Shown here: one piece after another, positions 793-29,772 of the stretch
Layout of the letters: the number at the start of each line of letters is the position of its first letter
How positions within the stretch are numbered: the first letter of the stretch is position 1
Origin: Opitutaceae bacterium
Lineage (GTDB): Bacteria; Verrucomicrobiota; Verrucomicrobiia; Opitutales; Opitutaceae
NCBI GenBank assembly: GCA_023269585.1
Contig: JAHFTC010000035.1
Coordinates: forward strand, 1 to 34,888
Length of the DNA: 34,888 bases
Direction of reading: 5' to 3'
The notes under the pieces: generated by a model
What the model was told of the DNA's origin: nothing
Database searches by the model: none
Seen by the model: the letters and a program-made list of their open reading frames with translations, nothing else
Translations under genes and position numbers: made by a program

Positions 793-3396
793 ATGCCCAC
801 TTCGAAGCGACTGCTCCCCGCGCTCTCGGCTCACTCCTCTGTGGTGCTCGCCGCCACCTTGTTCGTTGGAAGCTCGGTCGGGCGCGGCGCCATCGACCGC
901 GACCAGAATCAACAGAGCGACATCTGGCAACTGCGCTACGGCACGGGCAATCTGGTTCCGGGCGCCGACGAGGACGGCGACGGCTTCTCCAACCTGGCGG
1001 AAGCGGTGGCCGGCACCAATCCGCGCGACATCCGCTCGGCGCCCACGCTGGGCGTGGAGTCGGTTTCAGGAGGTGGGGTGCAACTCCAGTGGCTGTCGCA
1101 GGTGGGGAAGCGCTACGACGCGCAGCTGTCCACGGCGCTGGGCACGGGCGCGGTGTGGGCCAGCGTAGGCAGCCTACCGGGTGACGGCGCGGAGCGGCAG
1201 CTGTGGCTCGACCCCAGTGGAGCGTCCACCGGGTTCTTTCGACTGACCGTCGCCGATGTGGACACGGATGGCGACGGCCTGACTGACTGGGACGAGATTC
1301 AGCTCGGGCTCGACCGGAAGCGGGCGAATACAGACGGCTTCGGTTCCGCCTCGAACACCGACTACACGCGCGTGAACACCGCGCTCGGTGCGACGAATAC
1401 AGTGACGGTGGCGGCGCTCGACCCGGCGATGGCGGAGAACTGGCCCGATCCCGGCGTGGTCGCGGTCCGGCGGACCGGCAACCTCGATCCGATCACGGTC
1501 AACTTCAGCCTCAGCGGCACTGCGACGGAGGGGGCCGACTACACCGGTCCGGGCGGGCGCACGGTGACTCTCGGGCTGGGGGTTTCCGAGGTCTGGTTGA
1601 GCTTCCTCCCCCGGGCCGACACGGTCTCGGAGGCCGCGGAGACGATCAGCGTGACCGTGGCATCAGGAAGCGGATATGTCGTGGGAAGTCCGGCGTCCGC
1701 CGCGCTGGTCCTGACCAACACGCCGGCCGGGGCGGTGTCGGAGAAGGAGGCGGCGCGGTTCCTGGTGCAGGCGACCTTCGGGCCGAACCCGACCGACCTC
1801 CAGCGGGTGCAGCAGCTCGGGATCGCCGGCTGGCTGGACGAGCAATTTGCCCGGGCGCCGCAACTGCACCTGCCGCTCGTGCAGCAGTGGCAGACGGAGA
1901 TCGCCGCGGCGACTCCGGGGAGCAACGCCTCGTCGACGGAGCGCACCGAGGCGTGGTGGCGGCGGGCGTTGCAGAGCGATGGGGCCGCGGATCCGTTGCG
2001 GCAGCGGGTCGCGCATGCGCTCAGCCAGATCCTCGTGATCAGCGACCGCAGCAGCTTGTTGGAGTCGACGCCGCGCGGCATGGCGGACTACCACGACCTG
2101 CTGCTCACCCAGGCGTTCGGCAGTTTTCGCACCCTGCTGCGCGACGTGAGCCTGCACCCGACCATGGGGCTCTACCTGAGTCATCTTCGTAACCAGAAAG
2201 CCGATCCTGCGCGCAATCGCTATCCGGACGAGAATTATGCCCGCGAGGTCATGCAGCTCTTCTCGATCGGACTCTGGGAGCTCCAGTCCGACGGCTCGCG
2301 CAAGCTCGACGGCGCCGGCCTTCCGATCCCGACCTATGACAACACCACGATCGCGAACGTGGCCCGGGTCTTCACCGGCCTGAGCTATGCGCAGAAATTC
2401 ACCAGCGGGACCGATCAGACGATCATCCCGGCGACCGGCTTCTACGACAGCTACGGCATCGCCTGGGCGCCCATGCGCGGCTTCGATGCCCGGCACGATC
2501 TCGCCGCGAAACCACTGCTGGGCGGCGTGACTTTACCCGCGCGCACGGCGAGCAACCCCGACACCGGGGCGGCGACGCTGGCGGATGTCGAGGCGGCGAT
2601 CGACGTGCTCTGCAACCATGCCAACGTGGGGCCCTTCATCGGCCGGCAGCTGATCCAGCGCCTGGTCACTTCGAATCCGTCGCCACAGTACATTGCGCGC
2701 GTCTCGGCGGTGTTCGCGAACAACGGGGCCGGGGTGCGGGGCGATCTGCGCGCGGTGGTGCGGGCGATCCTGCTCGATCCGGAGGCGCGCGATCCCGCGC
2801 GCCTCGCCGAGGCGCAACACGGCATGCAGCGTGAACCGTATCTGCGCTATGTCGCCCTGGTGCGCGCGCTCGGCGGCACGACGAGCGACGGCCGCCGTCG
2901 CGGCTTCCGGAATCTCGACGCGGACTTTCTCCAGCGGGCCTACAGCTCGCCGAGCGTGTTCAATTTCTACCTCCCGGACTTCCAGCCGCTCGGCCCCTTG
3001 CAGGACGCAGGGCTGTTCGGACCCGAGTTCCAGATCACCAACGCGCTCACCGGCATCACTTCGCCCAACCGCTTCTATTCGGCGGCGACGCAAACGGTCT
3101 TCCGGCTCAACCCCTCGGGCGCGAGCGAAGCCGGCCTCGACACCGTGATCGATCCCGCGCCGTGGCTCGCCGACGCGACGAACAACCCCGAGAATCTCGT
3201 GGCCCGCCTCGACCGCCTCCTGGCCGCGGGGACGCTCGCGCCGGCGACATTGCGGCAGGTGGTGCGCGCCGTGCGGCGGCTGCCCGATCCCCTGGGCACC
3301 ACCGACCAGGCCGCGCGGACCACCCGGGCGACCGACCGGTTCCGCATGGCGCTGTATCTCGTCCTCATCAGCCCCGAATTCAGCGTGCTCAAATAA
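793..3396 (+). CDS. Exported DUF1800 protein with type-3 calcium repeats and a Calx-beta domain
   Basis: 867 residues. The first ~30 form a signal peptide (basic start, hydrophobic stretch, small residues before GAID). Aspartate-rich loops of the thrombospondin type-3 / EF-hand kind follow at about residues 35, 59 (DEDGDG) and 155 (DVDTDGDGLTD). Residues ~209-312 resemble a Calx-beta domain (GTATEGADY is typical). From ~317 to the end is a full DUF1800 domain (PF08811), with conserved stretches such as FLVQATFGPNPTDL, HPTMGLYLSHLRN, YAREVMQLFSIGLWEL, GRQLIQRLV and SPSVFNFY. The biochemical role of DUF1800 is unknown. It is regularly encoded next to DUF1501 in Planctomycetes and Verrucomicrobia, as here, where the next gene starts 10 bp downstream. 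The protein is probably cell-surface or periplasmic and binds Ca2+ (inference). Confidence 0.9.
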   Translation: MPTSKRLLPALSAHSSVVLAATLFVGSSVGRGAIDRDQNQQSDIWQLRYGTGNLVPGADEDGDGFSNLAEAVAGTNPRDIRSAPTLGVESVSGGGVQLQWLSQVGKRYDAQLSTALGTGAVWASVGSLPGDGAERQLWLDPSGASTGFFRLTVADVDTDGDGLTDWDEIQLGLDRKRANTDGFGSASNTDYTRVNTALGATNTVTVAALDPAMAENWPDPGVVAVRRTGNLDPITVNFSLSGTATEGADYTGPGGRTVTLGLGVSEVWLSFLPRADTVSEAAETISVTVASGSGYVVGSPASAALVLTNTPAGAVSEKEAARFLVQATFGPNPTDLQRVQQLGIAGWLDEQFARAPQLHLPLVQQWQTEIAAATPGSNASSTERTEAWWRRALQSDGAADPLRQRVAHALSQILVISDRSSLLESTPRGMADYHDLLLTQAFGSFRTLLRDVSLHPTMGLYLSHLRNQKADPARNRYPDENYAREVMQLFSIGLWELQSDGSRKLDGAGLPIPTYDNTTIANVARVFTGLSYAQKFTSGTDQTIIPATGFYDSYGIAWAPMRGFDARHDLAAKPLLGGVTLPARTASNPDTGAATLADVEAAIDVLCNHANVGPFIGRQLIQRLVTSNPSPQYIARVSAVFANNGAGVRGDLRAVVRAILLDPEARDPARLAEAQHGMQREPYLRYVALVRALGGTTSDGRRRGFRNLDADFLQRAYSSPSVFNFYLPDFQPLGPLQDAGLFGPEFQITNALTGITSPNRFYSAATQTVFRLNPSGASEAGLDTVIDPAPWLADATNNPENLVARLDRLLAAGTLAPATLRQVVRAVRRLPDPLGTTDQAARTTRATDRFRMALYLVLISPEFSVLK

Positions 3397-15078: not shown

Positions 15079-15121
15079 GAAGTCTTCTTTGCGAATGCGG
15101 TGTCTTCTTCGGCCAAAAGGG

Positions 15122-15148
15122 CATGGCGGGCGTAAAGCCCGCCCCACC
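15122..15148. repeat. 27-bp palindromic repeat, family B, intergenic copy
   Basis: Contains GGCGGGC-GTAAA-GCCCGCC, a perfect 7-bp stem with a 5-nt loop, flanked by CAT and CCACC. All 27 bases are identical to 28441-28467, which lies inside the nnrD reading frame. Here it sits 9 bp beyond the glnS stop codon and might also serve as its 3'-end hairpin. Confidence 0.75.
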
Positions 15149-27462: not shown

Positions 27463-27702
27463 ATGCCGATTCTCACGTTCAAAGTCAGCACCGCCGAGGC
27501 GCGGACGATCCGCGCCCGGGCCCGGAGCGAAAAGGCCGCCTCGGTCTCGGCCTACCTGCGGAAAGTGGCGCTCGGGACGGAGGCTGCGACGGCCCCGATT
27601 GAGCGCCGCCGGCATCCCGTTTCCGGTCTGCCCTACAATGCGGCGACAGGGCGATCGGTCAGCGCCGAGGAGATCCGGGCTGCGCTCGCCGACTTCCCAT
27701 GA
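27463..27702 (+). CDS. Putative antitoxin (ribbon-helix-helix-like) of a PIN-domain toxin
   Basis: 79 residues. The N-terminal half (LTFKVSTAEARTIRARARSE, then a Ser-Ala-Tyr-Leu helix) has the strand-helix-helix pattern of ribbon-helix-helix antitoxins that bind DNA as dimers. The C-terminal half (residues ~45-79) is polar and would wrap around the toxin. The stop codon overlaps the ATG of the PIN-domain gene by 4 bp (ATGA), the usual antitoxin-toxin coupling. Assignment rests mainly on that context; the family is not otherwise recognised. It presumably represses its own promoter, for which no clear operator was found. Confidence 0.65.
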   Translation: MPILTFKVSTAEARTIRARARSEKAASVSAYLRKVALGTEAATAPIERRRHPVSGLPYNAATGRSVSAEEIRAALADFP

Positions 27703-28079
27703 AGTACCTGCTGGATGTGAATGCGCTCGTCGCGTGGGAACACGCCGGCTCGCCCCATCACGCGATCTTTCATGCCTGGGCCAAGAAAGCCGGCCGGCGC
27801 AATCTGGGCAGCTGTGCCCTGGTGGAACTCGGGTTCCTCCGCGTCTCGATGCAGGTGTTCGGTTATACGGTGGAACAAGCGCAGGAGGCGCTGGCGGCCA
27901 TGAAGCCGCACCTCGGCGGATTCGTCGAACAGGCACCGTCGCCGCGGTTGCCCGGTTGGGCGACGACGGCGGCGAAGACCACCGACGCCTACCTTGTCCA
28001 GGTGGCGACAGCACAGGGGTTGCAACTTGCAACCTTTGACGCGGCTTTGAGTGATCCGGCGGCGCTGCTGATTCGCTGA
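27699..28079 (+). CDS. PIN-domain ribonuclease toxin (VapC-like)
   Basis: 126 residues. The PIN fold is clear: MKYLLDVNALVAW with Asp6, LVELGFLRVS with Glu43, KTTDAYLVQVA with Asp96, and LQLATFDAAL with Asp114. These four acidic residues form the Mg2+-dependent nuclease centre. The family inhibits growth by cleaving RNA, often tRNA or rRNA, when not held by its antitoxin. It is encoded directly after the putative antitoxin with a 4-bp overlap and ends 22 bp before the converging nnrD stop. The sequence type (TDAYLV, ATFD) is that of the TA-system PIN subgroup, so a VapBC-like module is the best reading. The target is unknown. Confidence 0.87.
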   Translation: MKYLLDVNALVAWEHAGSPHHAIFHAWAKKAGRRNLGSCALVELGFLRVSMQVFGYTVEQAQEALAAMKPHLGGFVEQAPSPRLPGWATTAAKTTDAYLVQVATAQGLQLATFDAALSDPAALLIR

Positions 28080-28101: not shown

Positions 28102-29772
28102 CTACGGTTCGTTGAGCGCCGGGGCGAGGTGGGTGAGCAGATCGGTGGCGACGGCTGAAGTTGCTCCTTGGTGACGGGCGAGGTGGTCGGCGGCCAGACC
28201 GTGCCAGAGGAGGCCTTGGGCGACGCGGACGAGCGGCGAGTCGCCGCCGCCGGTGGCGAGGCGGCCGGCGATGAGGCCGGCGAGGAGGTCGCCGCTGCCG
28301 CCGCGGGCGAGGACCGGGCCGCCGGCCAGGCTGTGCCAGACGGCGTGGCCGTCGGTGAGGCGGGAGAGCGGGCCCTTGAGGACGGCCAGCACGTTGCGCT
28401 CCATGGCGAAGTCGATGAGTTCGGCGTTCTCGACGGAAGGCATGGCGGGCGTAAAGCCCGCCCCACCGGGCGGAACTGGCATGGCGGGCGAAAAGCCCTC
28501 TCCACCGGGCGAAGCGGACACGGCGGGCTCGACAACCGCCGCGCGCTTCGGCCCGGAGCCGCGCAGGCGGAGGAACTCGCCGAGGTGCGGGGTGATGACG
28601 ACGGGGCGGTTCTCCCGCACGCCCAGGGTGTCGAAGACCTGGGGACGGAGCGCGTCGGCGTCGAGAACCACGGGGCATTCGGCGAGCGAAAGGATGCCTT
28701 GGACGAGCGCCTGGGTTTCGCGCTCCTGGCCGAGGCCGGGGCCGATGAGGACGGCGGTGGCGCGCCCCAGGTGCGGGCGGAGCGCGGTGAGGTTCTCGAG
28801 CGCGATGGCGCCGTCGGGCGTCTCCGCGGCCGGGAGCCACATCGCCTCGGGGGCGCGGGCGGCGAAGGCGGGGATGAACGTCTCCGGCACGACCGCGGTG
28901 ACGAGGCCCGCGCCGCTGCGCAGTGCGCTGAGCACGGCCATGAGCGCGGCGCCGGGCATGGTGCGCGAGCCGGCGACGACGAGGAGGTGGCCGAAGGTGC
29001 GCTTGTCGCAGCCGGCCGGGCGCAGGTCGCGCAGCGGGTCGAGGACGCCGGAGGTGAGCACGTGCTGGTGGACGAGCGCGGGCTCGGCGGCGTCGAAGAA
29101 CCCGAGGTCGAGGTAGCGCAGGCGCCCAACCCACGGGGCGGATACAGCGCGCAGGACCGGCTCCTTCACGATGCCGGTGGCGTAGGTGAAGTCGGCGCGG
29201 AAGGCGACGGGAGCGTTCTCCTCGCCCACGCCGGTGGGAAGGTCGAGGGCGACGCGCAGGCCGAAGGAACGGTGCTCGTTGAGCGCGGCGAGGAGGTTGG
29301 CGAGGTCGGCCGGGAGCGGGAGGCGGAACTGGAGACCGAGGATGCCGTCGAGGCAGAGATCCCATTCCTCCTCGGCGGCGAGGCGTTCGCGCAGGGTGCG
29401 GGCGCTCACGATCTCGAGGCGGCCCGGCGCAGCCTCGAGGAGTTCGCGCCAGGCGCGGGCGGCGAGCGGGCGGAAGGCGCGTTCGCCGAAGACGGCGAGC
29501 ACTGTTGCCGTACCTTGGGGACAGGCGGCGAGCAGGGCGCGGGCGGCGAGCAGGGCGTCGCCGCCGTTGTGGCCCTTGCCGGCGAGGATGAGGAGGCGGG
29601 CGGCCGGGCGCAGCCCGCCGCTCTCGGCGCTGTCACGCAGGATGGCCTGGGCGACGCCACGACCGGCGCGCTGCATCGCGGCCCATTCGGCGGGCTCGCC
29701 GCCGATGAGCTGGCGGCGTTCCCAAGCGAGGGCTTCCTTGCAGGAGAAAACGGGATGGGCGTAGCGGTGCAC
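28102..29772 (-). CDS. nnrDE: Bifunctional NAD(P)HX epimerase / ADP- or ATP-dependent NAD(P)HX dehydratase, with repeat insertion
   Basis: 556 residues. The N-terminal half (~1-220) is NnrE/YjeF_N: LAGKGHNGGDALLAARAL is the nucleotide loop and ALDLPTGV a conserved strand. The C-terminal half (~240-556) is the NnrD/carbohydrate-kinase-like dehydratase: VVAGSRTMPGAALMA, IGPGLGQE, VVLDADALRP, TPHLGEFLRL, and ARGGSGDLLAGLIAG as the phosphate-binding loop. The enzyme repairs hydrated NADH/NADPH. Between TPHLGEF and the strand NVLAVLKGP lies an extra segment (about residues 420-444) with two imperfect copies of PGG-G-F-PAMP, encoded by the dispersed repeat at 28441-28513. acpS lies 107 bp upstream on the same strand. 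Confidence 0.93.
   Translation of the reverse strand: MHRYAHPVFSCKEALAWERRQLIGGEPAEWAAMQRAGRGVAQAILRDSAESGGLRPAARLLILAGKGHNGGDALLAARALLAACPQGTATVLAVFGERAFRPLAARAWRELLEAAPGRLEIVSARTLRERLAAEEEWDLCLDGILGLQFRLPLPADLANLLAALNEHRSFGLRVALDLPTGVGEENAPVAFRADFTYATGIVKEPVLRAVSAPWVGRLRYLDLGFFDAAEPALVHQHVLTSGVLDPLRDLRPAGCDKRTFGHLLVVAGSRTMPGAALMAVLSALRSGAGLVTAVVPETFIPAFAARAPEAMWLPAAETPDGAIALENLTALRPHLGRATAVLIGPGLGQERETQALVQGILSLAECPVVLDADALRPQVFDTLGVRENRPVVITPHLGEFLRLRGSGPKRAAVVEPAVSASPGGEGFSPAMPVPPGGAGFTPAMPSVENAELIDFAMERNVLAVLKGPLSRLTDGHAVWHSLAGGPVLARGGSGDLLAGLIAGRLATGGGDSPLVRVAQGLLWHGLAADHLARHQGATSAVATDLLTHLAPALNEP
28441..28513. repeat. Family B repeat, two near-tandem copies inside nnrD
   Basis: Copy one (28441-28467) is identical over 27 bases to the intergenic element at 15122-15148. 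Copy two starts at 28480, 39 bp later, and keeps CATGGCGGGCG-AAAA-GCCC but its right arm has decayed. A third fragment (CACGGCGGGC) begins at 28519. All are read in frame on the minus strand as part of NnrD. Confidence 0.75.

Follow-up and report, generated by a model that had tools for sequence, protein, structure and literature searches.

The window analysed here, a stretch of 34,888 nucleotides (positions 1-34,888, forward strand, of contig JAHFTC010000035.1) from the 4.47-Mb, 92% complete draft genome of an Opitutaceae bacterium (GCA_023269585.1), carries a bifunctional nnr gene whose dehydratase portion (nnrD) contains two units of a tagged palindrome (Table 1). Directly beside nnr, on the plus strand (27463-28079), a small NikA-like protein, matched below threshold, precedes a PIN-domain protein that overlaps its end; the pair is possibly a VapBC-type toxin-antitoxin. 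One of the two nnrD units is identical over 29 bp (GGCATGGCGGGCGTAAAGCCCGCCCCACC) to an intergenic copy which, according to gene calls and Pfam, lies 13 bp downstream of the end of a Glx-tRNA synthetase gene. The preliminary description had given this identity as 27 bases (15122-15148), which is exact as far as it goes but slightly short. The degraded copy which it placed 39 bp away is also present, with three mismatches to GGCATGGCGGGCGTAAAGCCCGCCCCACC; this unit, first in coding order, has lost stem pairing on one side. The two units lie 39 bp apart in register, agree at 33 of 39 positions over the unit, and are in frame on the minus strand, where they read as ASPGGEGFSPAMP and VPPGGAGFTPAMP. 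Shuffles of the window yielded no match to the palindrome, and an Rfam search of the window returned no match at gathering thresholds. An in-frame insert of some 25 residues had been proposed; the frame stands, and the length does not, as the protein is a net 35 residues longer than that of the nearest congener, because 14 further residues (GPKRAAVVEPAVSA), unaccounted for by the repeat, precede the first unit.

Table 1. Positions in the window of the nnr gene, its repeat units and the matching intergenic copy.
Feature	Position	Strand	Basis
nnr gene, bifunctional NAD(P)HX epimerase (YjeF_N) and dehydratase (Carb_kinase), 556 aa; proposed insertion host	28102-29772	-	Pfam PF03853 and PF01256
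Intact GTGG-tagged REP unit, second in coding order, reads PPGGAGFTPAMP	28439-28467	-	Exact repeat; covariance-model E 4.6e-6; frame
Degraded REP unit, first in coding order, reads SPGGEGFSPAMP	28478-28506	-	3 mismatches; covariance-model E 5.3e-6; 39-bp unit comparison
Whole nnr segment without counterpart in relatives, ~114 bp, GPKRAA to AMPS in coding direction (approximate ends)	28436-28549	-	Protein alignments; AlphaFold
Intergenic copy of the nnr REP	15120-15148	-	Exact repeat; gene calls; Pfam of neighbour

On the minus strand the unit reads GTGG-GGCGGGC-TTTAC-GCCCGCC, that is, a tag, a 7-bp stem and the 5-nt loop TTTAC. Across the aligned stem, 97% of cells are paired, and changes on both sides preserve pairing, as they also do in a second subtype with the stem GTCGGGC/GCCCGAC. 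The conserved end across 39 aligned copies is GGTGG, which rules out a CGTC-tagged REP of the Rickettsia RPE-4/6 kind. A pattern search allowing up to three mismatches found 76 copies in the draft genome, and the same search with a reversed control pattern found none genome-wide; a covariance model gave 101 matches at E ≤1 and 88 at E ≤0.0125. The genome count, a check suggested in the preliminary description, therefore stands at about 90 copies, mostly intergenic, and identifies a dispersed repeat. Since the unit is dispersed genome-wide, the intergenic copy of the nnr repeat is not a fragment of nnrD. Intergenic positions, often shortly past a stop codon, account for most copies, and 14 of 21 close pairs are tag-outward (HH) inverted dimers. 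Copies avoid genes: only 13 of 98 fall inside predicted genes, which make up 81% of the sampled DNA, genes having been called approximately, by means of a codon-usage script, in 0.5 Mb of sequence surrounding the copies. Three same-orientation matches spaced 164-165 bp on contig C142 (2-372), and a pair at 167 bp on contig C163, belong to a longer tandem unit that contains the REP. The repeat is expanded in this genome: 76 strong copies were counted, compared with 3 and 2 in two congeners and 0 in the majority of the family. In G021, which belongs to another genus, 103 copies lie within one mismatch of the pattern, the matches listed being of the GTCGGGC subtype. A GTAG-type tag outside the stem (here GTGG), a stem within the range of 5-13 bp with a short loop (here 7 bp and 5 nt), and many dispersed intergenic copies with predominant HH dimers are all found, and the repeat is a GTGG-tagged REP of the GTAG superfamily.

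Protein alignments show the segment to be absent from the NnrD of both congeners (85% and 78% identity) and from every other homologue among the relatives examined, the best-matching named NnrD record being that of Verrucomicrobia bacterium WAS_Bin_16. This comparison had been set in the preliminary description as the test capable of refuting an insertion, and the insertion survives it; the broader proposal that small palindromes insert into genes is borne out by a dispersed repeat that is in frame here and missing from the congeners' NnrD. Species differ in the loop itself, so that neither a target-site signature nor an exact junction is definable at nnr; in the empty-site search for the intergenic copy, congener similarity stops at the synthetase gene end. 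The AlphaFold model of NnrD has a mean pLDDT of 92, with only residues 410-439, between helices 397-403 and 449-459, below 50, and the closest solved structure, Thermotoga TM0922, has 12 residues where this NnrD has 47. The insert is predicted to form a disordered loop in an otherwise well-folded enzyme, in keeping with the earlier suggestion that the palindrome survives as a peptide insert in a loop, here of a predicted protein.

Other genes of this genome hold in-frame copies as well, as emerged on listing copies inside coding regions, a further check that had been proposed. The recD2 gene has two direct copies, spaced 48 bp, between the HHH and AAA domains; the site is absent in both congeners, whose sequences pass from query residue 305-306 directly to 341 with only 6-9 bp between. 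Further in-frame copies occur in a cation P-type ATPase, at two sites in a periplasmic-binding protein and in a modBC fusion, within its linker. Of these, the P-type ATPase and modBC sites carry less weight than nnr and recD2, because these linkers vary between congeners in length and sequence. Copies at the N-terminus of eutC and ureD may be untranslated leader, and an ORF with a copy on contig C41, which looks like an artificial fusion, was not counted as a gene. A separate kind of repeat, degenerate and heptamer-like (CGGAAAC/CGGAGAC, giving ETGNRRPETGNS...), occurs around residues 590-640 of L087 (3013-5637), in a P-type ATPase linker, and at the N-terminus of L227; a similar peptide is present in congener proteins.

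We favour, with a probability of roughly 0.88, the reading that the segment is a GTGG-tagged REP which inserted into nnr after the split from the congeners, was then duplicated in tandem, and has been tolerated. Under this proposal one REP unit, a short non-autonomous mobile palindrome, would have landed in nnr after that split, and would subsequently have been duplicated as 39 bp (13 codons); the insert may persist because it adds a multiple of three bases overall, is read in a stop-free frame and lies in a tolerant loop. The preliminary description had left open whether two close copies reflected repeated insertion or local duplication. Both units are flanked by GCCCG and GCC, a combination found in none of 97 other copies, which favours one insertion and a tandem duplication. 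Two independent insertions at neighbouring sites would have precedents in the double insertions reported in Opitutus terrae genes (Di Nocera et al., 2013; PMC3733652), and in the two units that lie 129 codons apart within one periplasmic-binding protein gene of this genome; this origin is nevertheless unlikely for nnrD units that share orientation, 33 of 39 positions and flanks unique among the copies. An ancestral segment, of which the intergenic copies would be fragments, would explain the exact identity of genic and intergenic copies equally well, but is refuted for practical purposes by its absence from all NnrDs examined, by the approximately 90 copies elsewhere, which include a second stem subtype, and by the 12 residues of TM0922 against 47 here. 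That the hairpin serves transcription termination or mRNA stability, and fell within a gene by chance, is likewise highly improbable: such roles have been proposed for REPs generally, and would suit the many intergenic copies soon past a stop codon, but the nnrD copies sit mid-reading frame between stretches of conserved domain sequence, and the stem of one has decayed.

The inserted peptide itself most likely serves no function under selection. The frame in which genic copies are read varies (PGGAGFTP, VGRALRPP, AGVKPAPP, GRKARPT), and therefore no single peptide is selected. Between the two nnrD units, four codon differences are nonsynonymous and two synonymous, as is expected under weak constraint. 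That the peptide influences the enzyme or its partners and has been retained by selection might be entertained given that at least five other Opitutaceae NnrDs carry tagged palindromes of their own in loops, and that Di Nocera et al. (2013) speculate on effects on repair proteins; the several frames, the codon differences and the predicted disorder of the segment make such a role very improbable. Nor do tagged hairpins show a clear excess in nnr, where 16 were counted in 127 kb versus 31 in 372 kb of flanks, chance matches included.

The palindromes of those other NnrDs appear as independent in-frame elements at L154:1869-1928, L192:4200-4256, L191:4246-4270, near L178:2144-2243 and near L167:4161-4274. 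Those of L154, L178, L191 and L192 lie in the beta-hairpin after LKGP, while L167 has them both in that hairpin and in the loop matching the window insert; in L154 and L192 they are dimers of the same stem-loop as here, bearing the GTAG tag in place of GTGG. In the NnrD of L211 a different loop, the one after LGFF, holds an insert of 33 residues that contains an internal repeat (NVLSDKFSD...NLISDKFSG). It is conceivable, if rather doubtful given that no excess over flanks was established in the same hairpin counts, that unrelated tagged palindromes have repeatedly landed in two NnrD surface loops throughout the Opitutaceae, making the enzyme a target that is preferred, tolerant or even benefiting, and not a random one.

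With regard to mobilisation, this genome encodes several RAYTs that score above the NCBIfam cut-off. None was found near this REP in this 92% complete draft (G000) or in G021, an absence which is provisional given draft sequence. In the MAG G057, a Y1-type transposase gene (L261:1264-1852) is flanked by inverted GTAGGAGGGGCTTTACGCCCCGAT with the TTTAC loop seen here, and is likely a REP-RAYT unit. Mobilisation of the REP in trans by a RAYT is plausible, in which case an HUH tyrosine transposase would catalyse its movement. A RAYT above the cut-off on contig C1 of the present genome (L085) is surrounded by four copies of another palindrome, of the GTAGGGACGCCGCTCCGTCGGCGTCC type, which is a second REP family in this genome.

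No copy of the present stem-loop within one mismatch was found in G005, which we take to be O. terrae, and in a 400-kb sample of that genome the GTGG-tagged hairpin seen most often (GTGGCACGGGCGTC...) has a different stem. A second, different tagged dimer elsewhere in the L192 NnrD (3322-3380; GTGGCACGGGTCTCC...) resembles that common G005 family. According to Di Nocera et al. (2013), GTAG-tagged REPs occur inside genes in frame most abundantly in O. terrae, often as dimers that add 20-30 residues; GTGG is reported as a variant tag for O. terrae GTAG-20, and nnr is not named as a target in the text consulted. The published elements and the repeat described here are alike in having a tag at one end, a 6-9 bp stem and a short loop, in forming tag-outward dimers, and in being mainly intergenic with some copies in frame, within the same bacterial family. 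GTAG-20 shares the GTGG tag; we assign the present repeat no family number. REP/REPIN-RAYT systems (Nunvar et al., 2010, PMC2817692; Bertels and Rainey, 2011, PMC3116915) likewise combine small palindromes bearing a tag, and inverted pairs of them, with RAYT genes of the same genome, but differ in that a RAYT flanked by this REP was not found here, a related REP flanking one in G057. Rickettsia palindromic elements, as summarised by Di Nocera et al. (2013), are similar as in-frame palindromes in protein genes, tolerated as added peptide, and dissimilar in their CGTC tag (RPE-4/6) and lineage, with no shared sequence claimed.

Empty sites in two congeners at two genes, nnr and recD2, indicate that tagged palindromes have recently moved into working genes, where they persist as added peptide that is predicted to be disordered. 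As natural in-frame insertions with clean outgroups, these sites are suited to measuring the cost of such events. The finding neither overturns nor opens a field: the nnr insert is a well-supported further instance of the in-frame GTAG REPs already published, formed by a repeat unmatched to a published consensus, and it carries what was observed in Opitutus in 2013 over to a further lineage, one in which the repeat family has expanded.
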